NCBI GenBank assembly: GCA_003105035.1 | Contig: PQAL01000003.1 | Span: 186,001 to 250,000, forward strand | Direction: 5' to 3' | Origin: Anaerolineales bacterium | GTDB taxonomy: Bacteria > Chloroflexota > Anaerolineae > Anaerolineales > UBA4823 | DNA: 64,000 nt | In this document: positions 16,340 to 35,996 of the stretch, one piece after another | Position numbering within the stretch: position 1 is the first letter of the stretch | Layout of the letters: every line of letters starts with the position of its first letter | Notes under the pieces: generated by a model | What the model saw: the letters and a program-made list of their open reading frames with translations, nothing else | Databases searched by the model: none | What the model was told of the DNA's origin: nothing | Program-made: the position numbers and the translations under genes

Positions 16340-18982
16340 TCAGGGTACTTTAAAAATCGTCAGATTGCCTTGCTTGAATACCGGCTCAAGCACCTGATTT
16401 AGCTTACGCAAGGCAGTGCTCAGCGTGCAACCCGCGCTCGCCTGGTTGCAAATATGCTGGATGTAATTCATCTCGGGCTGACCCAGGATGACGTAATCCA
16501 CGCCATACTTGTTCAGGAGATCTAGCGTCAACTGTCCATCGGAGGAGGTGTAGATCGTAGCGATATCTGGCTCACGCTTGGCTTGCTCATCATAACTACC
16601 GCGCCATTGGCTCTCGTGGACTGCCCAACCCAGCATGGTTGGGAAGCCTGTGAAGGCGCTCATCCGTCCCTCATAGGTGTACGAGCCACCCAAGGGAGGA
16701 ACACTGGGTGCTTCGAGGATCACCGGCACATCCCCAGCTGGCAGCCCTTGCTCAGCATTGGCATCCAGCCACTCGATCGCCGCCCAGTCATCCGGGTTAG
16801 CCTGGGCGATCGAGCTCGAGCCATCCAGATTAGCCGGACCACTAAACCCACCAGCCCGGCTGGGATAAGCCATCAGCGGGTAGACCAGGCCTAAACCGAT
16901 AAATACGATAGCCCCAGCCGCGAATATGATGCGGCCGGCAGGGCGCTTGAGGTGAGCCAGCAGCCACCAGGTGCCATAGGCACCGGCGATTCCCAGCATG
17001 ACCCAGGCTTGATAGTAAAACTTGAATACGGTGTTCATGCGCACGCCGAAACTATCGCGCAGGTAGATAAATTCGACGATCAAGGTCAAGGCCAATCCGG
17101 TAAAAATTAACAACAAGGCAAACAGGTCACTGCTGAAGGCCGGTAAAGCATGTGCCGGTTCCTCGCCGGGCTCAGCAATTGCTGAACGACCTTTCAATAC
17201 CGCGCCCACACTGGCAAGTACCAGGGCCAATAAGGCGGTTAGCATGAGCAACAGCCAGGGATCGCTGAGGCGCGCCTGTATACTGGCCAGGTAGGCTTCC
17301 TTCAAGCTCATGCCTCCTAACACCTGCTGCAGGGTGGCCATTAATGAGCTATCTGGAGCAGGGTTCAGAACGAGGAAGGCCAAAGCGATGATCAGCATGA
17401 TCGCCAGGAATATCCCCACGCAGATTCCCAGGATGCGTAGCCACCAGAAAAGGAAAGAACGCCACACGCGCTGGCCCGCTTCACCTTGCTGGTGGAGATA
17501 CACGGTCAGGAAGCATATAACCAGGAAGACCAGTGTGCCAAACATGACCAGGTATTGGACCAGCCGGGTGGGTGGAAATACATAGGGCAGGACGCCAGCG
17601 GCTTGTGAGCTGAAACTTAGATAGAAAAAGATATATAGGAAAATAGAAGCGATTCCCAGGCCTATGCCGAGCACGACAGAGCGCACTATTGCCTCCCAAT
17701 CCAGGTGGCCCCTCTGCATAACCAGACCCAGGCCATACGCCAATACCACTAACCCCAGGTAGATGGGCAGGTCCCAGGTGTTCAAGAAACCCAGGGCACC
17801 CAGGATAAGGGCGGAGAACATAAACAATAACCAGTCATTATCCAGGGCAAAGGCTACCGGATTCCACCAATGTGAACCTGATTTGTGCTCAGAATCTACC
17901 TCCTGCTCAACCTCCCGGCGGCTGCTTTCCAGCTGACGCACCAGTAAGTTGAAGGCCATACCAATCGCCAGCAGCACGAAGGGCAGAGCCAATACGTGTG
18001 GGTGGTTGTCGCCCAGCAAAAAACTAAAGAAAGGAAATTCATCGATCGGTTGAACGATCATATTCTGCCCGAGGAAATTCTTATCCGCCAGGACGCGCGA
18101 TGCCTTCCACCACCACAGAAAGATATCACCCGTGTACCACGAGCCGGTTACCGGTGCCTGGACCAAACCCGGGATGTCGATCCAGTTCCAGAAGCGCTCA
18201 GACAGGATCCCGCGGGCATGCAGCGATTCAAGCACACCTTCCAGGTTACCCATCACCGCCACCAGCACCCCGCCCAACACACCAGCAGCCAGGGCAGGGC
18301 CAGAGCGCAATGGAGGGTCACCAACCTTACTACGAGCTTTTCGGCTATAGGCTACCAGGTTGTATACCACACCGAACGCGCCAATCAGGGTAAGGGCAAA
18401 CAGCAGGGCATCATACAGGTCGAATGCCACACCGGAGATTGCTGTTGAAATCCGGGTGAGCGTGGCCAGCATCACATAGCCGTAATAATAGTATGAGATG
18501 GCGAAGCCTGACAGCCAGGGGTCAAGGGGTGGGAAGTGCTGGCTGCGTAAGATGGCATTCTGGAAGGCGATTTCCATGAATTTCTCACCACCCGTAGGCT
18601 CAATCTTGTAAGGAGCATAAGCCCGCAGGACAGCCCAGGCTACCAGGGCCAGGGCAAATAACACCTCAACTGTGGCGACCAGCTTCCATTTGTCCTTAAG
18701 GAAGCCACCCAAATTGGGGATAAGCGTGCCCCGGCAGCGAAAATAAAACCAGGCGGAGATGCCCGCCACGAGCAGGATTGCCAGCAGGCTGCCACCCAGG
18801 TCATTATTCACCAGGCCGGTACTGGCACCCAGCCACAGGAAATAACTGGCCAGCAGCAGACCGAGCGCCTTGCTGAAGGAATAACCACGATCGGGCAGCC
18901 ATCGGAAGATGCGCATGGCAGTCGGCAGAGCCAACCAACCCAGGATCTCCATGAGCAGCCACCAGACCAGTACCTGGATCAT
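16340..18982 (-). CDS. DUF2298 (Chlor_Arch_YYY) integral membrane protein
   Basis: This 880-residue, very hydrophobic protein carries the family's YYYxG motif (SYYYYGYVM, near residue 162). It follows the PPLDPWLSG block, and MNTVFKFYYQAW lies later. The N-terminal helix segment with PDRGYSFSKALG matches the second half of the neighbouring 1852-residue protein, so the two are paralogues. The C-terminal 170 residues look soluble and extracytoplasmic. The family is uncharacterised and thought to be related to GT-C membrane glycosyltransferases. Its ATG overlaps the upstream stop by four bases, suggesting coupled synthesis and perhaps a complex with the fusion protein. It is the last gene before the terminator. 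Confidence 0.9.
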   Translation of the reverse strand: MIQVLVWWLLMEILGWLALPTAMRIFRWLPDRGYSFSKALGLLLASYFLWLGASTGLVNNDLGGSLLAILLVAGISAWFYFRCRGTLIPNLGGFLKDKWKLVATVEVLFALALVAWAVLRAYAPYKIEPTGGEKFMEIAFQNAILRSQHFPPLDPWLSGFAISYYYYGYVMLATLTRISTAISGVAFDLYDALLFALTLIGAFGVVYNLVAYSRKARSKVGDPPLRSGPALAAGVLGGVLVAVMGNLEGVLESLHARGILSERFWNWIDIPGLVQAPVTGSWYTGDIFLWWWKASRVLADKNFLGQNMIVQPIDEFPFFSFLLGDNHPHVLALPFVLLAIGMAFNLLVRQLESSRREVEQEVDSEHKSGSHWWNPVAFALDNDWLLFMFSALILGALGFLNTWDLPIYLGLVVLAYGLGLVMQRGHLDWEAIVRSVVLGIGLGIASIFLYIFFYLSFSSQAAGVLPYVFPPTRLVQYLVMFGTLVFLVICFLTVYLHQQGEAGQRVWRSFLFWWLRILGICVGIFLAIMLIIALAFLVLNPAPDSSLMATLQQVLGGMSLKEAYLASIQARLSDPWLLLMLTALLALVLASVGAVLKGRSAIAEPGEEPAHALPAFSSDLFALLLIFTGLALTLIVEFIYLRDSFGVRMNTVFKFYYQAWVMLGIAGAYGTWWLLAHLKRPAGRIIFAAGAIVFIGLGLVYPLMAYPSRAGGFSGPANLDGSSSIAQANPDDWAAIEWLDANAEQGLPAGDVPVILEAPSVPPLGGSYTYEGRMSAFTGFPTMLGWAVHESQWRGSYDEQAKREPDIATIYTSSDGQLTLDLLNKYGVDYVILGQPEMNYIQHICNQASAGCTLSTALRKLNQVLEPVFKQGNLTIFKVP

Positions 18983-21900
18983 TGGATCACCTCGTAGATG
19001 ACCGTATTCTCATCCCGGTAGACTTCATTCCAAAAATTACCGACGAACGCCGGGAACTTATCCAGCCCAGAGCCGGGATAGGTGAGCTGCTCCAGCTGCC
19101 CGACCACGATATATCTAACCTGGTACAGGTTCAGGAACTGCTTGACGGTTTGCGTATCGATGGTTGTGTAAAACTCATCCACATCCATAATGCGCTTGGT
19201 CACCCATTCGGGTGGGTTGACGGCGCGTTGTTGCTGCTGGTGCCACTCCCATCCGACCACGCCAGGCAAGCCCGTATTGATGGTGAAACGCGTGTACCAG
19301 CGGTACAGGTTGCGCGAGTTGGCTTCCACGATCACCGACGAACCATGCACGTTTTCCTGCATCCACTGGATGGCGCGGTAATCCTGGCTTAAATCCATCG
19401 CAAGCCCGCGCTGGTTGGCTGGGGTGCTCTCGGTAGTGTTAGTATAATCTTCATAATAAGTCGCATAGGGCATGTAGGCCATGCCATCCAGGGTGTGGGG
19501 GGCGGCAGGCACCCAACGATCCTTGATCTTGGCCATCGTGCCGTACAAGGTGAATAAAAAGGCTGAGAATACCAGGAAAGCAAACCCCACCCGCCAAGCT
19601 CCACGCCAACCGGGCAGCCAGCCCCGCATCGGCTCGAGCAGCCATCCCAAAGCAGCCGCCGCACTCAGGGCAAACAACCCCCAGACCTGCAGGTAAAACT
19701 TAAACACGGTGTTCATGCGGCCAATATCCCCGCGCACCACCACCATCTCGACCATCAAAGTGATAAGCAGGCCGGTCCCCACCCAGAAGAGCACCAGGCG
19801 CTTCACGTCAGGCAGCCCAGGCCGTAAGAGCAACACCCCGGCCCATGCCGCCAGTGGCAGGATGACCCAGACCATGGCAGCGCCTCGCCCAATGGGAAGC
19901 TTGCTTAGGAAAGGCATGGCTTCGATCCCAGGAATCTTGATGCTCACCAGCAAGCAAGCCAGTATGAGCAGCACAATCCCGGCAATGATCAGCCCGGCGT
20001 ATTTCTCCAGCTTGCGCAGTGAGGCCAGGGGCGTATTGGCCATCCACTCGCGCGTCTCCCATACCATCCAGGAGACAATGACGAACAGGAACAAGCCCCA
20101 ATGGGTTAAATAGGACCACAAGGGGGTATGCGTACCCGTCCAGGGGATGACGGCAGAGTATGGTTGGGCATACCATAAGCGGTAAGGTAGATATAAAGCG
20201 TAGGATAAGACCGCCAGGAGCAATATGCCTGCCCCAGCAATGAGCAAACGTTTTAAGGTCAGGCTGACCTGGGGAAGCCAGGTGAAACGCTGTCGATCGG
20301 CATACCGAAAAAGGGCATAGCCAAGGACGAGCATCCCAATGGGCAGGTAGGCATAAATATCAGAGAGATTGGTGGGGTAAAGGGCGCCGATCGCCAGGCC
20401 ACCCAACAGCAAGCTCAGTAAGCCTGCCCCACGACTGCTCGAATGAGCTTTACCCAGCAGCACCGCCACAGCCCAGGCAAGAGCCAACATGGCGATGGCC
20501 ATGGCGATCATGTGGGCATGCAAGTCGCCATACAGGAAGGTGAACAGGGGAAATTCAGTGATTGGTTCAACGTCATTCGGGGCAGGGATAGCCCGGCTTG
20601 GTAGCCAATACCAATCAGCTAGGCCATAAGGTAGCTGGGCGCCGTGGAACAGGTTGTTCCATATTCCCACAGGCAGACCGGCCAGGCGAGTGAGCAGGGG
20701 CGTCGTGTCGGTCACTCCACCCTGAACACCCAGCTGCTCCCAGCCCTTGAGAAACATGCGCAGGGTGCCCAGGTTGCCGACGATGGTCATGCCGACCGCC
20801 GAAGCTACCCCGATCCAATACGGCCGGCTGGTGGAAGCTTCAGGCGGCTGGTCACCATCAGTGGCGGCCGGGTCATCAGGCTGCTCGACTCCCTGTGAAC
20901 GAGGGTGACTGAGGTTGTAGCCAATGCAGAAGGCTCCCATGGCAACTAGGCTGAACAGGGTGGGGAGGATCAGGTTGTAGGCAATGGAGGGCACGATGCC
21001 CAGCCACTTGACCAGCACACCGACGAAGACAAAACCCCAGTAGTAATAATTCATATAGCCACCAGCGTACCAGGGGTCATAAGGCGGGAAGGAACTGCTC
21101 TTCAGGATGGCGTTGAAGTAAGAAAAGTCCATCGGCTTTTCCCCACCCTTCCACGGGTGCCACAGGTCGGGGTTACCCAGCCGGACGAGCAGGAAGGCCA
21201 CGAAAAATACCAGGAAAAGCCCTTCAATGATCAAGAAATACTTGCGCCGCGAGCGCCATTCCTCGCGCAGCTCGACCCGCTGACGGTACGCCAGATAGAT
21301 CCCCACCGCGGCCATGATCAGGATGACCAGGGTAATGGTCAGGCGGCTGAAGGAGATATTGACCGAGCCAGCCAGCCAGGTAAGGTAAGCCAGGATCAGC
21401 ATGCCTGCCGTACGGGCCAGGGGGTAACCGCGATCCCGCAAGCCTGGCAGGGTAATGCGCAACAGGGGATAGGTCAGCAACCCCAGGACAGCTACGCTCA
21501 GGTACCATACTATTACTGCAAGGATCTGGTAGCGATTTTGCGGGGCCTGTGGATCAAACAGCTGTGACCAGGTGCCCCCAATGGTCTGCAGGTACAGGCG
21601 TACCTCAGGGAGAATCAAATTTGCCGGGTGGTAGGCAGCCTTCTTGGGCGTGATCCGCACGATCTCGCCGAAATTCGCCTGGCTGAGTATCTGGCGCATC
21701 TGATCGGAATTGTAGCTGCTGGTCTTTTTGAAGACCAACACCTTGGGATGGTCGTAAACCGTGAAAGCTTCCTCGGCAAATTGGTCGTTGACGCTGAACG
21801 GACCGATCGTTGGATCAGATTGGAAGATCGCCACAAGCTCGAAACCCAGCTTGCCCTGGAACAACCCGGGTTCGGCCACGCTGTAGCACCAGCCGATATC

Positions 21901-24537
21901 CTTGTCATCCGGGCAGCCCAGCAGGTAGCGATAATGCAAACTGCTCATTGGAAAACGCTCAGGCAGGCGTGGTAGCGAGCCCCATTGGCGATTGGAGCTG
22001 ATCAGGATGTACTCGGTGCGGTCATACACGTCGATGAAATGCTCAAGCTTGTCGGCATTATCATCGGTGTACATGTTAAAGTTCAGGCCGGGGGTATAGA
22101 TTCCGCCAAAAGGATCGTAGCCATCCACCCGCAAGGGCAGGCCATCATCCCAATCGCCTTCATTCGCAATGGCTGAGCCCTGGACGGTGAGTCTACCCTC
22201 TCCAGAAACCAACGCCAGGGAAAGGTTGTAATTCCGGCCAGCCTCCAGCACAAGGGGCGTATCCAGCGTCATGGTATAGCCCGTACCAGCGCCGAAATCC
22301 GCAGTCAGGCTGGCAGTTACCGGCGGTTGAGACTCCTCGCCCGAAGCGATGCTGATCTGGATTGTTTGCTGGCCCTGAGCTGGGGTCTGATCCACCAGTT
22401 GGCTCAGAGAGATTGACTCCAGGGAACCATCGACCTGGATCGGCAAGGATACTGTAAATTCAGAACCAGGCTGGATCAGGCACTGGGTGGGTGTGGGGAT
22501 GGACTGCACGGTTTTAACACCAGCAGTTAGAATGGTCAGTTCAAGCGGACCGCAGGCGTTCAGTACCCGGGAGGAATCCGGCGTGGTGAGCATCAGCGTG
22601 TACTCGGCACCAGCCTTGACTGGCAGGGGTGTAGCTAGTGCCAAGATTTCTTTACTCGAGAAGGAGATTCCAGATCGAGACGGGGTGACCATCTCAGATG
22701 ACTGGCTTAACGGTACCTCACCGGTTGTGCTAAAAACGAATACGTCCAGTGCTACCGGCTGGGCCAGCTCGTTGGCAACATGCCCGAGGGCAACCTCGTT
22801 CACGGTACCGCTTTCATGAGCAGTAAATACGGTCTGGTATGGCAAATCAGCCTGGATGGTGATGCCATACGGGATTGAGAGCGGCTGGTTGTACTCCCCG
22901 CTCCCGGTTTGGATGTGCAGGTTGATCGGTCCAGGGATATTCTGGTAAATCCAATCAGAGGCAGCCACGCGCGTGATGGGACGGGCATAGATCAGGCTGA
23001 ACCCCAAGGCCCAGAGGAGCGTGGCGACCAATACGAGGGCTCCCCCCAGGATTGCAACGGGCTTTGCCCACTTCACAGCTGCGGGTTGATGCTCGTCTTC
23101 CGGAGATGTCGCTCCTCCCCGTTTACGGCGCCGGAGATTCCATAATTCCACCAGTCCCCAGGCAGCATAGATGGTCAGGATGGGATAAGTGGGCATCTGA
23201 TAACGCATGGTCGGGTTAAACTGCATCGACTGCCAGACGAAATAAAACCCTCCCCATGACCAGAGCACAACATGTCGCTGCCAGTCTCCTTTGAGCATGC
23301 GCCAGCCCGCCCACAGGAAGCCGAAAGCAGCCAATATCGCCAGGGGAATACCCAAACCCCATTCCGCCATGTTTTGGGCTGAAAACCAGATCGGTCGGCG
23401 GGCCCATTGCAGCGAAGGTGGAAAGTCGATGTCACCGGCCGCCTGGGCACGCTGCTCACGGATATTGGACACCCACTGCGGGTTGGGACGCACCCCAAGG
23501 AACCCAGGTCCCAGGAAGGCATAGGGTTGGAAAAGTCGAAATACCAGTATGCTCACAACGGCTGCAATACCCAGGTACACAAACGCATTAATCAGCCAGC
23601 GCGAGCGCTCGGCAGCGGGCTTGCGGAAGATCACCACCGCATAAGCCACCGGAAGCACAAAGGCCACCGGTGCGGCGCTTAATTTGGAAGCGACAGCGCA
23701 ACCCAGGGCAATCCCAAAAGCAATCGACGGGCCAAAATAGGGCTGCTTGATGAAGTCGGCGATACGGGCAGACGTTGATAGGGGAGCATTGCCCCGCTGG
23801 CCCTCAGCGGGACCTTCCGGCGAGTCTTCACCAGGTTCAGGCTGTTGAACAACGACTTTCCCATTCAACAGGCTGATGCACACGGCAAAATAAACCGCCA
23901 GCAGGGTAAAGAAGCTGAAGAAGGTATCCATGGTGAAGAAGTGCGACTGCTGGATGTTCAGCACCGTGAAGGCAGCAAAAGCTGCCGCCAGGAGGCCCAC
24001 CGACCGGCTGAACAGGCGCTTCCCAATCAGGTATACCAAGACGACCGACGACAGATCGATAATTGCAGAAAGGATTCTGCCGACGATGGTCATCTCATTG
24101 AAGCCGGAATGACCGTACACCCACTCCACAATATAGCGGGTGATGAACATCGGTAGCGTACCGTAAACATAAAACGAATGGCCGCGGTTATTGGGGTTGA
24201 GAGGCGAGCAGGAGGCATCGAAATAGCCGCCCCAATTCTTGCAATCCGGGTAAGCATCAGGGTATTGCGCCCGCCAGGAATTGTTTACCGTGTTGGGAGG
24301 CGTCCCCAACTCGGCATCGGGCGTGTCGATTGGGGCGATATCCGTCCCAACCCAGATCAGGAAACGCTCATCCGGGTGTAGATATTGGAATTCACCCCAC
24401 TGGATACCGATAAAACGAAAAGCCGCGCCGATCAAGAGCACGAATACCAGCAGGATGTCGTAGATCAGGGGGGTGACCCAACGAGCTCTTTTCTGCTGGA
24501 CAGGCAACTGTGATGAAGAGGGAACGGCTTCAGTCAT
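18979..24537 (-). CDS. GT39-type glycosyltransferase fused to a DUF2298 (Chlor_Arch_YYY) domain
   Basis: At 1852 residues this is the largest protein in the window. Residues 20-520 are a GT39/PMT-like membrane domain with an acidic first-loop motif (LHPDERF, D56-E57). Residues about 530-835 are beta-rich, without helices, and probably extracytoplasmic; 836-985 resemble the soluble tail of GT39 proteins. From about 1000 to the end is a complete DUF2298 domain with NYYYWGF near 1162 and MNTVFKFYLQVW later. The frame is intact. Its ends overlap or adjoin other GT-C genes. A natural fusion of a sugar transferase with a YYY domain implies the YYY domain acts on the same substrate, but this is inference. 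Confidence 0.9.
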   Translation of the reverse strand: MTEAVPSSSQLPVQQKRARWVTPLIYDILLVFVLLIGAAFRFIGIQWGEFQYLHPDERFLIWVGTDIAPIDTPDAELGTPPNTVNNSWRAQYPDAYPDCKNWGGYFDASCSPLNPNNRGHSFYVYGTLPMFITRYIVEWVYGHSGFNEMTIVGRILSAIIDLSSVVLVYLIGKRLFSRSVGLLAAAFAAFTVLNIQQSHFFTMDTFFSFFTLLAVYFAVCISLLNGKVVVQQPEPGEDSPEGPAEGQRGNAPLSTSARIADFIKQPYFGPSIAFGIALGCAVASKLSAAPVAFVLPVAYAVVIFRKPAAERSRWLINAFVYLGIAAVVSILVFRLFQPYAFLGPGFLGVRPNPQWVSNIREQRAQAAGDIDFPPSLQWARRPIWFSAQNMAEWGLGIPLAILAAFGFLWAGWRMLKGDWQRHVVLWSWGGFYFVWQSMQFNPTMRYQMPTYPILTIYAAWGLVELWNLRRRKRGGATSPEDEHQPAAVKWAKPVAILGGALVLVATLLWALGFSLIYARPITRVAASDWIYQNIPGPINLHIQTGSGEYNQPLSIPYGITIQADLPYQTVFTAHESGTVNEVALGHVANELAQPVALDVFVFSTTGEVPLSQSSEMVTPSRSGISFSSKEILALATPLPVKAGAEYTLMLTTPDSSRVLNACGPLELTILTAGVKTVQSIPTPTQCLIQPGSEFTVSLPIQVDGSLESISLSQLVDQTPAQGQQTIQISIASGEESQPPVTASLTADFGAGTGYTMTLDTPLVLEAGRNYNLSLALVSGEGRLTVQGSAIANEGDWDDGLPLRVDGYDPFGGIYTPGLNFNMYTDDNADKLEHFIDVYDRTEYILISSNRQWGSLPRLPERFPMSSLHYRYLLGCPDDKDIGWCYSVAEPGLFQGKLGFELVAIFQSDPTIGPFSVNDQFAEEAFTVYDHPKVLVFKKTSSYNSDQMRQILSQANFGEIVRITPKKAAYHPANLILPEVRLYLQTIGGTWSQLFDPQAPQNRYQILAVIVWYLSVAVLGLLTYPLLRITLPGLRDRGYPLARTAGMLILAYLTWLAGSVNISFSRLTITLVILIMAAVGIYLAYRQRVELREEWRSRRKYFLIIEGLFLVFFVAFLLVRLGNPDLWHPWKGGEKPMDFSYFNAILKSSSFPPYDPWYAGGYMNYYYWGFVFVGVLVKWLGIVPSIAYNLILPTLFSLVAMGAFCIGYNLSHPRSQGVEQPDDPAATDGDQPPEASTSRPYWIGVASAVGMTIVGNLGTLRMFLKGWEQLGVQGGVTDTTPLLTRLAGLPVGIWNNLFHGAQLPYGLADWYWLPSRAIPAPNDVEPITEFPLFTFLYGDLHAHMIAMAIAMLALAWAVAVLLGKAHSSSRGAGLLSLLLGGLAIGALYPTNLSDIYAYLPIGMLVLGYALFRYADRQRFTWLPQVSLTLKRLLIAGAGILLLAVLSYALYLPYRLWYAQPYSAVIPWTGTHTPLWSYLTHWGLFLFVIVSWMVWETREWMANTPLASLRKLEKYAGLIIAGIVLLILACLLVSIKIPGIEAMPFLSKLPIGRGAAMVWVILPLAAWAGVLLLRPGLPDVKRLVLFWVGTGLLITLMVEMVVVRGDIGRMNTVFKFYLQVWGLFALSAAAALGWLLEPMRGWLPGWRGAWRVGFAFLVFSAFLFTLYGTMAKIKDRWVPAAPHTLDGMAYMPYATYYEDYTNTTESTPANQRGLAMDLSQDYRAIQWMQENVHGSSVIVEANSRNLYRWYTRFTINTGLPGVVGWEWHQQQQRAVNPPEWVTKRIMDVDEFYTTIDTQTVKQFLNLYQVRYIVVGQLEQLTYPGSGLDKFPAFVGNFWNEVYRDENTVIYEVIQ

Positions 24538-24581
24538 AATCTAGGTAAATAATAATCCTGTGAATTTCCTGAGCGTTATCC

Positions 24582-26777
24582 TCAGGGAATCACCACTCCT
24601 CCCGGTCCAGGTACTGCACCTGGACTCGATGACGCCTTTGGAACCATGTAGATGTAGAAATCCTTTCCAACCTGCGAATTGTAACTGGAGACCGTCCCAT
24701 GAGGGAACAATTCGTATAGCAGTTTAAGGTCAGCTTGGTCTTGTGGATTGATGATGAACAGCTTCGGCTGGGGGAAGTTGACAGTGTTATCAATTTGGTC
24801 AGGCATGATAGCCATATCCCGGGTAGGGTCACCGGCATTCATGCCCACCAGGCGCGTGTCCACCCAGTATGGATAAGGGACCACATAGGCATTGTTCATC
24901 CCGCCATACAGCTCGCCAAAATCACGGATGACGCTACCCATCTCGGAGCTATTGATGGAGGCCAGCACATAAGCCCGTTGGTACTGGTTGAAAACTAAGT
25001 CATAATTCCCCAGGGCGGAGAAGAAAATGAGCGCAATCGCAAGCCCCCACGAAAACCTTGACCCGCTTTTGGAAGGCATGCGTTGCTCAATACCCGACAT
25101 CAACCCATCCAGGGCAATGGCAATGATGACAAAAACCGGCACAATGGCGCCTCCCGCCCGGTTCAAAGCCGGGTTCTCGTCCGGAAAGGCCAAAGATAGT
25201 ATGGATGGCAGCATCAACACCGGTACTGAGATGAGCAAGGCTAGGTCTTGCCAGGTACGCCTGCGGATGTAGCGTACCAGCAGCAAGACCACACCGAGGA
25301 AGTACAGGGCTGCGGAGATAACATCCAGGGCCGGGCTGTTGGTCACCGAGTGGACCCAGATATTACCGTCCGACCAGAAGAACATGGTGGATGCGTTCCA
25401 TAAGTTCTTAATGAAAATCAGCAAGGCGGGGCCAGGCAAAGAACGCTCAGATTCCCCCAGGCGTGAAAAAGCCCGGTAGTCAAAAAGGGAGGGATATTCG
25501 ATCGCAAAGCGTAGCAGGGGCAGGAAGACAAGCAGGGAAATCAGGATCAGCACCATTAGCCCGGTAAATACCTGTAGCCTGCGGCCCCGGGCCTGAGGGT
25601 GAAGCAAGAACAGGCCAACAACGATCAACACGAGAATGGGCAAGATGCGGATGGGCGTGTAGCCGTGCAAGCCAATCCCCAGGGCCAAGCCCGACAGGAT
25701 GAAATCGTTGCGCCTGCCAGTACGCAGGCCACGCATCAAGTAAAACAAGGTCGGAGCGACAAATAGCGGGTAGAGCGGGAAGCGTAGTCCGACACGGGAA
25801 ATCACATTCGGCCAGTAACCAATGCCCGCAAACAGTAAGGCGAACAGTCCCACCCGGCGGTTGCCCAGCTCCTTACCCAGCAAGTAAACGAACGGCAGGG
25901 TAAGTAACCCCACCAGAACGGTGCCGATCTTCAGGCTCAGATAGGTATAGCCGGTGTGCAGCAGCTTGATGATCCCTGCCGTCAGGTACATTTGAATAGC
26001 TTCTCGCCCGGTATTGCGCGGGAAGAAGATCTGCGTTTGCCCATGGAGCACATCCCAAATATCCAGCAGCTTCTCGGCATGATCGCTGACCATCTCCGGG
26101 GGCACCTGGGTAATGCGGAAGGTGCGGAAGAAGACCACCAGCGCTAACACGGCAATGACGAGTAAAGCCCAACTGGAGATGGAGAACTTCCACGGAAAGT
26201 GCAGGTGATCCTTGAGCCACTGCCACCACCCCTTGAATGGCAGCTCTCCCTGCCAGAAAGCCAGGCAGGTAAATATCACCGCCAGAAGCCATACAGAGAC
26301 ATTGAGGACGGTGAAACGGTTTCCCCCGAGGAGCAGGAAGGCTACCAGGGCCAGGGGCAGACTGATGATCAGCCAGCGAGAACGCACGCGATAATCTTCG
26401 GGGTGATCTTCGGGCTCGGGCAGCTCGGCCGGCGCCCACTCGCCTTTCCATACTGCCCACACCAGCACGCCTGCCGCGAGTAAGTACAGGATCACGCCCG
26501 GGATCCACTGCCGGTTGGGGCGGGGAAGCAGGGATAATTGGGCCACCAGAGCCAACCCGAGGGCCAGCAAGGAGCGCCAGGGGAGCTCGAGGTGTGAGCG
26601 GGGCAGCACACGGGCCTGGGTTGAATCAGCCAGCAACTCCATCTGCTCAGGACGTTCTATGGATTGTTCAGTACTTTCTGGGGATGTTTGGGGGGCAGGT
26701 TCAGCGGCGGGAATTGCCAGTGGCTTCCCGTGCAGCAGGGATTTAAGGTAATCCAGAACCGTTGGTTCACGGTTCAT
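24582..26777 (-). CDS. GT39-family integral membrane glycosyltransferase
   Basis: This 731-residue protein has a soluble proline- and glutamate-rich N-terminus (about 65 residues), a block of helices and then a GT39/PMT core. The core has an acidic loop motif (MVSDHAEKLLD), a long run of helices, and a C-terminal extracytoplasmic domain ending in a proline/glycine-rich tail. It should use a polyprenyl-phosphate sugar. The ATG overlaps the stop of the upstream methyltransferase (ATGA), and the next GT39-DUF2298 gene begins 44 bases downstream, so all belong to one transcript. The sugar and acceptor are unknown. Confidence 0.85.
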   Translation of the reverse strand: MNREPTVLDYLKSLLHGKPLAIPAAEPAPQTSPESTEQSIERPEQMELLADSTQARVLPRSHLELPWRSLLALGLALVAQLSLLPRPNRQWIPGVILYLLAAGVLVWAVWKGEWAPAELPEPEDHPEDYRVRSRWLIISLPLALVAFLLLGGNRFTVLNVSVWLLAVIFTCLAFWQGELPFKGWWQWLKDHLHFPWKFSISSWALLVIAVLALVVFFRTFRITQVPPEMVSDHAEKLLDIWDVLHGQTQIFFPRNTGREAIQMYLTAGIIKLLHTGYTYLSLKIGTVLVGLLTLPFVYLLGKELGNRRVGLFALLFAGIGYWPNVISRVGLRFPLYPLFVAPTLFYLMRGLRTGRRNDFILSGLALGIGLHGYTPIRILPILVLIVVGLFLLHPQARGRRLQVFTGLMVLILISLLVFLPLLRFAIEYPSLFDYRAFSRLGESERSLPGPALLIFIKNLWNASTMFFWSDGNIWVHSVTNSPALDVISAALYFLGVVLLLVRYIRRRTWQDLALLISVPVLMLPSILSLAFPDENPALNRAGGAIVPVFVIIAIALDGLMSGIEQRMPSKSGSRFSWGLAIALIFFSALGNYDLVFNQYQRAYVLASINSSEMGSVIRDFGELYGGMNNAYVVPYPYWVDTRLVGMNAGDPTRDMAIMPDQIDNTVNFPQPKLFIINPQDQADLKLLYELFPHGTVSSYNSQVGKDFYIYMVPKASSSPGAVPGPGGVVIP

Positions 26778-33337: not shown

Positions 33338-34237
33338 ATGAATAAGAACATGTCTCTCGCCTGGGTGAAGCCACTGCTTAAAACGATGCGCCCGCGCCAT
33401 TGGGTGAAAAACGGGCTGCTATTCATCCCGCTTATCTTCGATAAACAGCTGACCAACTGGGTTGCCCTGGGTCGCACAATCCTGGGGGTCATCCTGTTCT
33501 GCCTGCTTTCAAGCCTCATTTACATCATCAATGACCTGGTGGACCTGGAAGCTGACAAGAAGCACCCGCTTAAAAGCCAGCGGCCGCTGCCATCCGGTGC
33601 CCTGAAGGTGCGCACGGCCAAGGCGGCAGGCATCCTGCTGACTTTAATCGTATTCATCCCAGCTGCTTTGCTCTCGCTAGAATTTGCCTTGATCGGTTTG
33701 GCCTACCTGGTGCTCAACCTGGCTTACTCAGCCTGGCTCAAGCATGCCCCCATCCTGGATGTGATGTGCCTGGCCAGCTTTTACGTCTTGCGTGTGGCCG
33801 CCGGGGTGTCACTGATCACCGTCACGCGCTTCTCCCCCTGGCTGTATGTCTTCACCACCTTCCTGGCCCTTTACCTGGGAATCGGCAAGCGACGGGCTGA
33901 GCTCAGCTTGCTGGCCGGAGAGGCGAACGCTCACCGGAAATCGCTGGGGGAATACACCCTGCCGCTGCTTGACCAGCTTATCTTGATCGTCTCGAGCAGC
34001 TCGATCATCACTTACAGCTTATACACCTTCTCAGCACCCAACCTGCCTGCCAACCACACCATGATGCTGACCATCCCGTTTGTGATCTACGGCATCTTTC
34101 GCTACTTGTGGCTTATCCAGGTTAAGGAATATGGCGGCGAGCCTGAGGAGGTGCTACTGAACGACCGGCCACTGCAGATCACGATCTTTTTGTGGGCACT
34201 GGCCATCCTGGTCATTTTCTATTCCTCCCCTGTTTGA
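33338..34237 (+). CDS. UbiA-family prenyltransferase, decaprenyl-phosphate phosphoribosyltransferase-like
   Basis: This 299-residue integral membrane protein has about nine helices. The first Asp-rich motif is NDLVDLEAD, and the second active-site region reads GIGKRRAEL. The N-terminal RPRHWVKNGLLFIPL matches the subgroup that attaches phosphoribose to polyprenyl phosphate, the first step to decaprenyl-phosphoryl arabinose-like donors. Such a lipid-linked pentose donor would suit the GT-C enzymes encoded upstream on the other strand. It is the first gene of the isoprenoid operon. Confidence 0.85.
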   Translation: MNKNMSLAWVKPLLKTMRPRHWVKNGLLFIPLIFDKQLTNWVALGRTILGVILFCLLSSLIYIINDLVDLEADKKHPLKSQRPLPSGALKVRTAKAAGILLTLIVFIPAALLSLEFALIGLAYLVLNLAYSAWLKHAPILDVMCLASFYVLRVAAGVSLITVTRFSPWLYVFTTFLALYLGIGKRRAELSLLAGEANAHRKSLGEYTLPLLDQLILIVSSSSIITYSLYTFSAPNLPANHTMMLTIPFVIYGIFRYLWLIQVKEYGGEPEEVLLNDRPLQITIFLWALAILVIFYSSPV

Positions 34238-34251
34238 TCTACAATATTAAA

Positions 34252-35199
34252 ATGCCCGCCTTTTCTGCATCAGCACCTGGAAAAGTGATTTTATTCGGCG
34301 AACACGCAGTGGTTTACGGGCAGCCGGCGATCGCTGTGCCTGTGCTGCAAGTGCGCGCCAAAGCCATCGTGAACATGGACCCGCGCGCTCCATCCGGTTC
34401 GGTCAGGCTACAGGCGCCCGACATCGGCCTGGAAGCGAACCTGAGTGACCTGCCAGAGAGCCACCCCCTGGCAGCAGTGATCCACAAGGCTGCTGAGGTT
34501 ATTCAGGTGAAGCGTTTGCCAGCCTGCACCATCAAGGTGACTTCCACCATCCCGATCGCTGGGGGGATGGGTTCGGGAGCAGCAGTGTCGGTAGCCATCC
34601 TGCGGGCTTTTTCAGCTTCCCTCGGTCACCCGTTGACCGATGAGCAGGTATCGGATATCGCCTACCAGGTGGAAGTGATCCATCACGGTACCCCGTCAGG
34701 CATCGATAACACGGTTATCACCTATGCCCGGCCGGTGTATTATATTAAAGACAAACCAATTGAGCTCCTGCAGGTGAAACAACCCTTCATCCTGGTCATC
34801 GGTGATACGGGAATCCACAGCCCGACCGCCAGAGCCGTAGGTGACCTGCGAGATGCATGGGAGAAAGATCGCTCATTCTATGAAAGTTTGTTCGACAATA
34901 TCGGGGAAATCGCCTCCACAGCCAGCGCGGCTATCAGAGCCGGCAAAGTTGACGCCCTGGGATCATTAATGAACCATAACCACAGCCTGCTGCAGGAACT
35001 GGGAATATCATCTCCAGCACTAGATAGCCTGGTGGAAGCTGCCAGGTCAGCGGGTGCGCAGGGAGCCAAGCTCTCCGGCGCTGGGCGGGGCGGCAGCATG
35101 ATCGCCATGGTCACCTCAGAGACGTCCAGCCAAGTGGCAGAGTCACTGCTAGCTGCCGGGGCCGTTCGCACGATCACCACCGAGGTACCCACAACATGA
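34252..35199 (+). CDS. mvk: Mevalonate kinase
   Basis: This 315-residue GHMP kinase begins MPAFSASAPGKVILFGEHAVVYG. The ATG at 34252 is chosen because the family starts at the PGKVILFGEH strand, whereas the longer in-frame start (34192) lies inside the UbiA gene. The ATP loop is GGMGSGAAVS, and GTPSGIDNTV is the mevalonate-kinase signature. The C-terminal GHMP motif is KLSGAGRGGSM. It phosphorylates mevalonate. No clear Shine-Dalgarno precedes it; TACAAT at 34240-34245 could place a start site right at the ATG. It overlaps isopentenyl phosphate kinase by ATGA. Confidence 0.95.
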   Translation: MPAFSASAPGKVILFGEHAVVYGQPAIAVPVLQVRAKAIVNMDPRAPSGSVRLQAPDIGLEANLSDLPESHPLAAVIHKAAEVIQVKRLPACTIKVTSTIPIAGGMGSGAAVSVAILRAFSASLGHPLTDEQVSDIAYQVEVIHHGTPSGIDNTVITYARPVYYIKDKPIELLQVKQPFILVIGDTGIHSPTARAVGDLRDAWEKDRSFYESLFDNIGEIASTASAAIRAGKVDALGSLMNHNHSLLQELGISSPALDSLVEAARSAGAQGAKLSGAGRGGSMIAMVTSETSSQVAESLLAAGAVRTITTEVPTT

Positions 35200-35996
35200 G
35201 CCCCCGGCTGGTTTTCCTCAAGTTAGGTGGCTCGTTGATCACCGTCAAAGCCCAACCCCACACCCCGCGCATGGATGTGCTGGCTCGCCTGGCAGGGGAG
35301 ATCGCCGAAGCACGATCGCAGGACCAAGGTTTACAAATCATCCTGGGGCACGGCTCGGGCTCATTTGGGCATGTACCCGCCAGCAAATATCACACCCGCC
35401 AGGGAATACATTCAACAGAAGAGTGGCTGGGTTTCGCAGAAGTCTGGCAAGAAGCGTCTGAATTGAATCGCCTGGTGATGCAATCCCTCGAACAGGCCGG
35501 CCTACCGGTGATGGTATTCTCGCCTTCCGCCACGGTGATCTCCAGGGATGGCAAAGTGGCAATCTGGAACCTGATCCCGCTGCGTAGCTCGCTTGAGGAA
35601 GGGCAGCTCCCGGTGGTCTACGGAGATGTAGTCTTCGACCTTATGCGTGGCGGGACGATTCTATCCACCGAAGACCTGTTCTCCTATCTCGTGCCCATAT
35701 TCAGACCGGTGCTTTTGCTCGAGGCGGGCATTGAACCCGGCGTGTGGCAGGATTATCCCACGAACACCAGGCTGCTGAGGGAGATTACACCCCAAAGTTT
35801 TCCTATCATCCAGGCTAGCGTTAAAGGCTCAGCCACTACGGACGTGACCGGCGGTATGCTTGACAAGGTTCACCAGGTTTTAACCATGGTGGAGCGTGTG
35901 CCAGGGCTAAACGCTTCCATCTTTTCGGCTGAGCCCCCCGGCAGCCTGCTGCGTGCGCTGTTGGGCGAAAATATGGGCACCCTGCTCCACGGCTAA
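35196..35996 (+). CDS. ipk: Isopentenyl phosphate kinase
   Basis: This 266-residue amino-acid-kinase-fold protein starts KLGGSLITVK and has GHGSGSFGH at 51-59, where H59 matches the histidine that distinguishes isopentenyl phosphate kinases from related kinases. It converts isopentenyl phosphate to IPP, the last step of the alternative mevalonate route described in Chloroflexi (Roseiflexus) and archaea. The four-base overlap with mevalonate kinase supports the assignment. Mevalonate phosphate decarboxylase is not in the window. Confidence 0.93.
   Translation: MSPRLVFLKLGGSLITVKAQPHTPRMDVLARLAGEIAEARSQDQGLQIILGHGSGSFGHVPASKYHTRQGIHSTEEWLGFAEVWQEASELNRLVMQSLEQAGLPVMVFSPSATVISRDGKVAIWNLIPLRSSLEEGQLPVVYGDVVFDLMRGGTILSTEDLFSYLVPIFRPVLLLEAGIEPGVWQDYPTNTRLLREITPQSFPIIQASVKGSATTDVTGGMLDKVHQVLTMVERVPGLNASIFSAEPPGSLLRALLGENMGTLLHG

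Follow-up and report, generated by a model that had tools for sequence, protein, structure and literature searches.

Two candidate ways to isopentenyl phosphate in an Anaerolineales genome with a mevalonate kinase and isopentenyl phosphate kinase gene pair

Main finding

In a window of 64,000 nucleotides (the whole stretch of DNA that was analysed) from the genome of an Anaerolineales bacterium we found a gene for mevalonate kinase (MVK) coupled to a gene for isopentenyl phosphate kinase (IPK), a pair which is real and ordinary for the class Anaerolineae. Judged from sequence, this pair very probably belongs to a mevalonate pathway with IPK as its last kinase. What is new here is a genome that appears to offer two possible ways to isopentenyl phosphate, which is uncommon in the class. 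An earlier note on this DNA had proposed that decarboxylation precedes the last phosphorylation. The IPK-ended pathway that this implies is supported, but a second candidate gene set for the decarboxylating step, of archaeal type and on another contig (C5), had been missed, so that phosphomevalonate decarboxylase (PMD) cannot simply be assumed for it.

According to the predicted activities, MVK would make mevalonate 5-phosphate, which would then be decarboxylated to isopentenyl phosphate and converted by IPK to isopentenyl diphosphate. The latter may serve, among others, polyprenyl products such as the UbiA-type enzyme encoded upstream would use. The archaeal-type set on C5, together with a UbiX encoded elsewhere, may provide another way of carrying out this decarboxylation.

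The gene set in the window

Both members of the pair were confirmed, each scoring above the cut-off of its curated model (Table 1). The MVK stop runs into the IPK start in a 4-base overlap (ATGA), and 14 bases lie between the end of the UbiA-type gene and the start of MVK, so that the adjoining UbiA-type gene recorded in the earlier note forms a tight three-gene set with the pair. The top PDB matches of MVK were solved mevalonate kinases (best 6mde, 153.5 bits). For IPK the closest solved relative was the isopentenyl phosphate kinase 3ll9 (112 bits, with GSFGH in common), and the score against the related FomA model was 40.4 bits at a cut-off of 550. The set is followed on its 3' side by a dGTPase-like gene and GreA, and a divergent gene for a TlyA-type methyltransferase lies upstream.

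Table 1. Genes of the three-gene set and GT-C-like membrane protein genes in the window
Feature	Position	Strand	Evidence
UbiA-superfamily gene, decaprenyl-phosphate phosphoribosyltransferase-like	33338..34237	+	NF008977 245.2 bits > cut-off 234; PF01040
Mevalonate kinase (MVK), GHMP family, 315 aa	34252..35199	+	TIGR00549 262.8 bits > 163.05; PF00288, PF08544
Isopentenyl phosphate kinase (IPK), amino-acid-kinase family, 266 aa	35196..35996	+	NF040647 145.1 bits > 120; PF00696
Two DUF2298 proteins (880 and 1852 aa)	16340-24537	-	
PMT_2 protein	24582-26777	-	

A similar IPK (59%) was found at two named loci, one in an Anaerolineales MAG and one in a Chloroflexota MAG, which suggests Anaerolineae as the class of our genome. 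The order UbiA-type gene, MVK, IPK recurred in 7 of 33 annotated IPK-bearing loci (L035, L036, L152, L155, L156, L157 and L158), two of the 33 being one and the same place. Around IPK in the four order-mate loci L146-L149 this gene row was absent, and MVK does not adjoin IPK there either. The UbiA-type gene fits a role in the supply of polyprenyl donors, which might feed GT-C proteins as the earlier note had suggested. Elsewhere in the window (16340-26777) the genes for the two DUF2298 proteins and the PMT_2 protein follow each other on the minus strand as a cluster of GT-C-like membrane proteins.

Remaining pathway genes in the genome

The window is part of contig C3 of an assembly of 4.45 Mb that is 97.1% complete and 4.1% contaminated, for which reason gene absences are not absolute. 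A gene row on contig C37 encoded an HMG-CoA reductase (TIGR00532, 410 at a cut-off of 260), an HMG-CoA synthase of archaeal type (539 at a cut-off of 353) and a thiolase-like gene, and a type 2 isomerase was encoded on contig C36 (414.6 at a cut-off of 281.3). The MEP pathway, whose absence the earlier note had named as a check and which we judged by IspG and IspH, appears to be missing: neither gene was found in the genome. IspG was found in none of 120 genomes of the class, our own genome included, with 9 of 14 controls positive; for IspH, searched in our own genome, 10 of 14 controls were positive.

A search with PF00288 returned four GHMP genes, namely a galactokinase, the MVK of the window, an MVK-like gene on contig C18 and a decarboxylase gene on contig C29. 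The last of these encodes the PMD homologue that the earlier note had suggested to look for. The expected lack of a phosphomevalonate kinase also held within the GHMP family, where none of the four genes scored above a phosphomevalonate-kinase cut-off. The C18 gene is a second MVK-like GHMP gene (TIGR00549, 174.4 at a cut-off of 163.05). Against two phosphomevalonate-kinase models its protein scored 46.6 (cut-off 165.7) and 40.6 (cut-off 500). The gene overlaps with the final part of a DHH gene that is similar to archaeal RecJ nucleases (L080:5615-7862). We considered this second MVK as a general feature of the class and rejected the idea, as the second MVKs of three other genomes were closer to the MVK of the window (81-107 bits) than to the C18 protein (37-69 bits); these had no DHH neighbour within the 6 kb inspected.

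The decarboxylase on contig C29

The C29 protein, an apparently vertically inherited PMD homologue, is most likely the resident decarboxylating enzyme. It scored 272 on the diphosphomevalonate decarboxylase model TIGR01240 (cut-off 171) and 209.6 on the PMD model NF040704 (cut-off 475). Its closest solved relative was 6n0x (408 bits); leaving aside the variant 6n0z, the runner-up reached 217. According to PMC9254496, 6n0x is the PMD of Anaerolinea thermophila with mevalonate 5-phosphate bound, and Thomas et al. turned PMD specificity by mutagenesis into that of the diphosphate enzyme. In the aligned stretch two substitutions set 6n0z visibly apart from 6n0x, Lys in place of Asn and Met in place of His; the C29 protein has Asp and His at these sites. 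It is without the Lys (Lys21) of diphosphomevalonate decarboxylases and carries His as 6n0x does. A pattern with a Lys missing and a His kept is described for Chloroflexota in PMC11052028, and we infer that the His kept in the C29 protein is the same one. Dellas et al. 2013 (PMC3857490, Table 4) give Arg83 for the PMD of Roseiflexus castenholzii and Arg/Thr for Chloroflexi. At the position of this Arg83 the C29 protein has His and no Arg.

The decarboxylases of 62 loci were aligned with our own protein (L050 being the same protein). The C29 decarboxylase kept 77 of 81 columns that are near-invariant in 29 sequences of the class, which themselves keep 75-81 each. The four changed columns were N29D and R35H, which are the phosphate-selectivity positions by which PMD is distinguished from diphosphomevalonate decarboxylase, as well as G109S and S140T. 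The selectivity positions thus read Asp/His in the C29 protein and Asn/Arg in order-mates, and the Asp/His pair occurred in none of the other 53 tabulated sequences. The motifs DAGPN, which we take to hold the catalytic Asp, and GSGSACR are both intact. A tree of 47 rows, from which 16 of the 62 loci were omitted (close duplicates, the fragment of G034, L050 and five of the seven R. castenholzii-like rows), grouped the C29 protein with order-mates with support 96/68. Its branch length was 0.84 versus order-mate paths of 0.44-0.66, while the branch of the IPK of the same genome (0.65) was not longer than those of order-mates. From the grouping with order-mates, the conserved columns and the branch lengths, the C29 decarboxylase looks inherited, intact and changed at its phosphate end.

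An archaeal-type gene set on contig C5

Searching for AcnX (PF04412) we found a gene scoring 502 bits on contig C5. It stands in the order UbiD-family gene, AcnX-L, AcnX-S and aminotransferase class V gene, the last of which overlaps the cluster. The UbiD protein scored 352.5 on TIGR00148 (cut-off 244.85), and a UbiX was encoded on contig C13 (262 at a cut-off of 188). This set is on a contig separate from that of MVK and IPK. In relatives from the class it is usually linked to IPK or MVK, though such linkage does not strictly define the pathway. In L143, for example, the order is MVK-UbiD-AcnX-L-AcnX-S-IPK and in L137 nearly the same, which ties these genes to the mevalonate pathway.

PMC10040528 characterizes phosphomevalonate dehydratase as a two-subunit AcnX that has Cys at each of the sites A, 1 and B but lacks it at site C. 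The C5 AcnX-L has C119, C294 and C351, and Val at site C. The same pattern of three Cys and none at site C was present, in the same alignment, in an AcnX encoded on C37 and in the proline-type row 7d2r, so that the cysteines did not discriminate between them. Conservation was compared over 106 positions invariant in 16 homologues of the class (reference rows from which G002 and Thermococcus kodakarensis were left out). Of these, the C5 AcnX-L keeps 92, the putative dehydratase of T. kodakarensis 86 (its input stretch ends early), the AcnX of G027 and G071 75 and 74, respectively, the proline-type AcnX 66 and our own C37 AcnX 57. The C37 AcnX was rejected as a mevalonate enzyme, as it lies among acyl-CoA genes and keeps few of these positions, though the three Cys are present. 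It belongs to a second, different AcnX pair (large and small subunit; L078:7126-8905) that suggests some dehydratase, with neighbours resembling acyl-CoA dehydrogenase, thiolase, ketoacyl synthase and acyl-CoA ligase, most of them named by eye. The AcnX of G027 and G071 was also rejected as a mevalonate enzyme because of a Ser at site 1 and the lack of a matching UbiD (G071 does not occur among the 67 UbiD matches); for this reason the genomes of the class were cross-tabulated by UbiD and not by AcnX. In the AcnX pairs of these two genomes (L144, L145) the site-1 Cys is replaced by Ser (GSPH), which marks them as another type of AcnX within the class.

The C5 UbiD keeps 96 of 117 invariant positions, versus 58-59 in three background UbiDs, and its identity to the IPK-type UbiDs with which it was aligned is 43-51%. 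In a midpoint-rooted tree its clade joined the IPK-type UbiDs against the three background UbiDs with support 96/99. The AcnX tree, also midpoint-rooted, placed our genome and G021 outside 17 IPK-type rows (87/89), as it did T. kodakarensis. The stems of the C5 clade, which comprises our own genome, G021 and, for UbiD, also G057, were long (0.87 for AcnX and 1.57 for UbiD). In G057 (L127:3-4718) the UbiD gene follows, on the same strand, genes for a corrinoid protein, a methyltransferase of the MttB family and an alpha/beta hydrolase, possibly as part of a methylamine-linked module.

The C5 trio is 68-71% identical to that of G021, a genome of another order, versus 42.5% for IPK and 49.7% for MVK, and a UbiD of C5 type was absent from the four order-mates sampled. 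This points to lateral transfer, either from one lineage to the other or into both from a shared donor, and it looks as if the C5 set was laterally acquired and arrived after PMD. In G021 the C5-type set coexists with a standard PMD that keeps 81 of 81 columns. Contamination as the cause of the two routes was rejected on the tetranucleotide profile of C5, which matches our own genome: four C5 pieces had correlations of 0.80-0.84, compared with 0.64-0.88 for all own pieces and 0.44-0.58 for pieces of four other genomes. For the 4.3 kb trio by itself the correlation was 0.62, as would fit a short piece or a foreign origin.

Distribution within the class

Among the 120 genomes of the class, IPK was over the cut-off in 105 and MVK in 108. 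A C5-type UbiD without PMD was found in 50 genomes, PMD without UbiD in 54, both in 8 and neither in 8. This near-exclusion (Fisher p 1.2e-16, kinship ignored) argues for equivalent roles of the two systems. Both occurred in our own genome (G000) and in G002, G013, G021, G040, G063, G072 and G091. The genomes with neither were G022, G025, G047, G049, G076, G081, G098 and G112, among which IPK was not over the cut-off in G025, G047, G049 and G076, and AcnX was over the cut-off in G022, G076 and G112. G081 and G098 have IPK and MVK over the cut-off with neither route found, which might reflect an assembly gap or a further route. G001 has AcnX and PMD with no UbiD match, and three genomes with a C5-type UbiD had no AcnX over the cut-off (G044, G057, G064). 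PMD-type, MVK and IPK genes shared one neighbourhood in L098, L103 (the same as L162), L155, L156, L160 and L161.

For these counts UbiD was scored at 258.9 bits or more (58 genomes), with a gap below this value down to 195.3. Weak or extra TIGR01240 matches were ignored (G088, and second matches in G009, G013, G034, G052 and G111), and IPK was scored as not over the cut-off in G065, where it is split by contig ends, and in G113, where it is cut short. The PMD count includes seven R. castenholzii-like sequences that fall under the TIGR01240 cut-off. These come from seven genomes of families f5 and f37 (L105-L111), with the motif YHGLxDW (YHGM in one), and are not of the A. thermophila type.

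The selectivity residues were tabulated for 54 of 55 genomes with a PMD over the cut-off, the fragment of G034 being dropped. In 40 IPK-bearing genomes without a C5-type UbiD they were Asn/Arg in 27, Val/Asn in 7, Asn/Asn in 3, Gln/Asn in 2 and Ala/Asn in 1. The eight genomes with both systems had Ala/Asn twice, and Asp/His, Asn/Arg, Lys/Asn, Arg/Asn, Asn/Asn and Ala/His once each. Arg was thus absent from PMD in 7 of the 8 two-system genomes versus 13 of 40 without UbiD (p 0.006, kinship ignored; p 0.002 if G001 is counted as having both), an association that is suggestive only, because the genomes are related and two families give two genomes each. As 13 IPK-bearing genomes without a C5-type UbiD do without it, Arg is plainly not indispensable and does not define the PMD family in the class. 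Lys/Asn, which PMC3857490 assigns to Sulfolobales and some eukaryotes, occurred in G013 and in G024 and G092, the latter two without IPK over the cut-off.

Comparison with known pathways

Our genome shares MVK, a PMD homologue near 6n0x and IPK with the PMD and IPK (haloarchaea-type) pathway of Chloroflexota, as represented by R. castenholzii and the A. thermophila PMD, and likewise no IspG or IspH and no recognised phosphomevalonate kinase were found in it. It differs in the Asp/His of its PMD, where 6n0x and order-mates have Asn/Arg, and in the second candidate route. With the archaeal modified mevalonate pathway it has in common adjacent UbiD, AcnX-L and AcnX-S genes, UbiX, IPK and the three cluster cysteines; in contrast, its set is on another contig than MVK and IPK, forms part of a divergent clade, has an aminotransferase gene next to it and is accompanied by PMD in the same genome. 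The classical mevalonate pathway shares the upstream enzymes and MVK but differs by its phosphomevalonate kinase, for which no gene over the cut-off was found here, and by the diagnostic Lys that our decarboxylase is without.

Kanno et al. 2024 reportedly described the archaeal modified mevalonate pathway in the Chloroflexota bacterium Candidatus Promineifilum breve. A 2026 review (PMC13001223) likewise states that some Chloroflexota encode the archaeal-type pathway, for which it refers to Kanno et al. 2024 and Dellas et al. 2013, so that the route itself is already known. Our literature search, not exhaustive at the full-text level, returned no report of both routes coexisting in Chloroflexota. 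Asgard contigs that carry archaeal-type marker genes together with eukaryote-type genes, as described in PMC11052028, show a similar mixture.

Which route feeds IPK

Several observations count against the IPK-ended reading with PMD: the changed selectivity positions and the long branch of the C29 protein, its score under the NF040704 cut-off, the C5 set as an alternative for that step, the second MVK-like gene on C18, and an assembly that is not fully complete. Within the IPK-ended pathway we consider it quite possible, at somewhat less than an even chance, that both PMD and the C5 set feed IPK. A real but lesser possibility is that C5 encodes a related but different module, acting on another hydroxy acid and possibly linked to amino acids or methylamines, with PMD alone serving the MVK and IPK pair. 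The long stems of the C5 clade, the overlap with the aminotransferase class V gene, the MttB and corrinoid neighbours in G057, the standard PMD alongside the set in G021 and the absence of the UbiD from the order-mates sampled are all consistent with such a module. However, most family-invariant positions are kept in C5, its AcnX-L is by this measure nearer to the IPK-type set than the putative dehydratase of T. kodakarensis, the UbiD shares 43-51% identity with IPK-type UbiDs, and the PMD of the same genome is changed at both selectivity positions.

It is unlikely, in our view, that the archaeal route operates alone, with the C5 AcnX-L/AcnX-S dehydrating mevalonate 5-phosphate to trans-anhydromevalonate phosphate, UbiD decarboxylating this product with prenylated FMN from UbiX, IPK finishing the pathway and PMD being freed. 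The consecutive UbiD, AcnX-L and AcnX-S genes with UbiX present, the conservation of AcnX-L and UbiD, the grouping of the UbiD clade, the near-exclusion of UbiD and PMD over the 120 genomes, the Arg missing from PMD in most genomes with both systems, and the three cluster cysteines with site C not Cys speak for it. This has to be weighed against the lack of linkage to IPK, the long stems with the AcnX pair outside the IPK-type rows, the fully conserved PMD of G021 beside a C5-type set, the aminotransferase neighbour here and the MttB-like methyltransferase and corrinoid protein in G057, and a cysteine pattern that does not discriminate. A classical route, with the C18 protein as phosphomevalonate kinase, the C29 protein as diphosphomevalonate decarboxylase and IPK as a salvage kinase, is highly improbable. 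The C18 protein is indeed a second MVK homologue (174 bits), and PMC9254496 mentions a proposal that phosphomevalonate kinase arose from MVK, but the C18 protein falls far under the phosphomevalonate-kinase cut-offs, the C29 protein has neither the Lys nor the Met by which 6n0z differs from 6n0x, and IPK is above the cut-off in most genomes of the class.

Meaning for the class

Tentatively, and as a possibility on the weaker side of even, we picture the genome as standing between two routes: an archaeal-type set may have been gained laterally atop a resident PMD and IPK, after which both phosphate-selectivity positions of PMD would have changed, the remainder of the enzyme being conserved to the same degree as in relatives. 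The routes might then have been swapped repeatedly across Anaerolineae, with PMD, where both are present, usually without the Arg thought to contact the 5-phosphate. The class-wide picture, with no IspG in 120 genomes, IPK in 105 and the middle step assigned to one of two unrelated systems, adds value to this single case. The two systems share a genome in only 8 of the 120, and such genomes allow the exchange and its direction to be tested. If this picture is true, living bacteria would offer a direct test of the evolutionary exchange that has been proposed for these routes.
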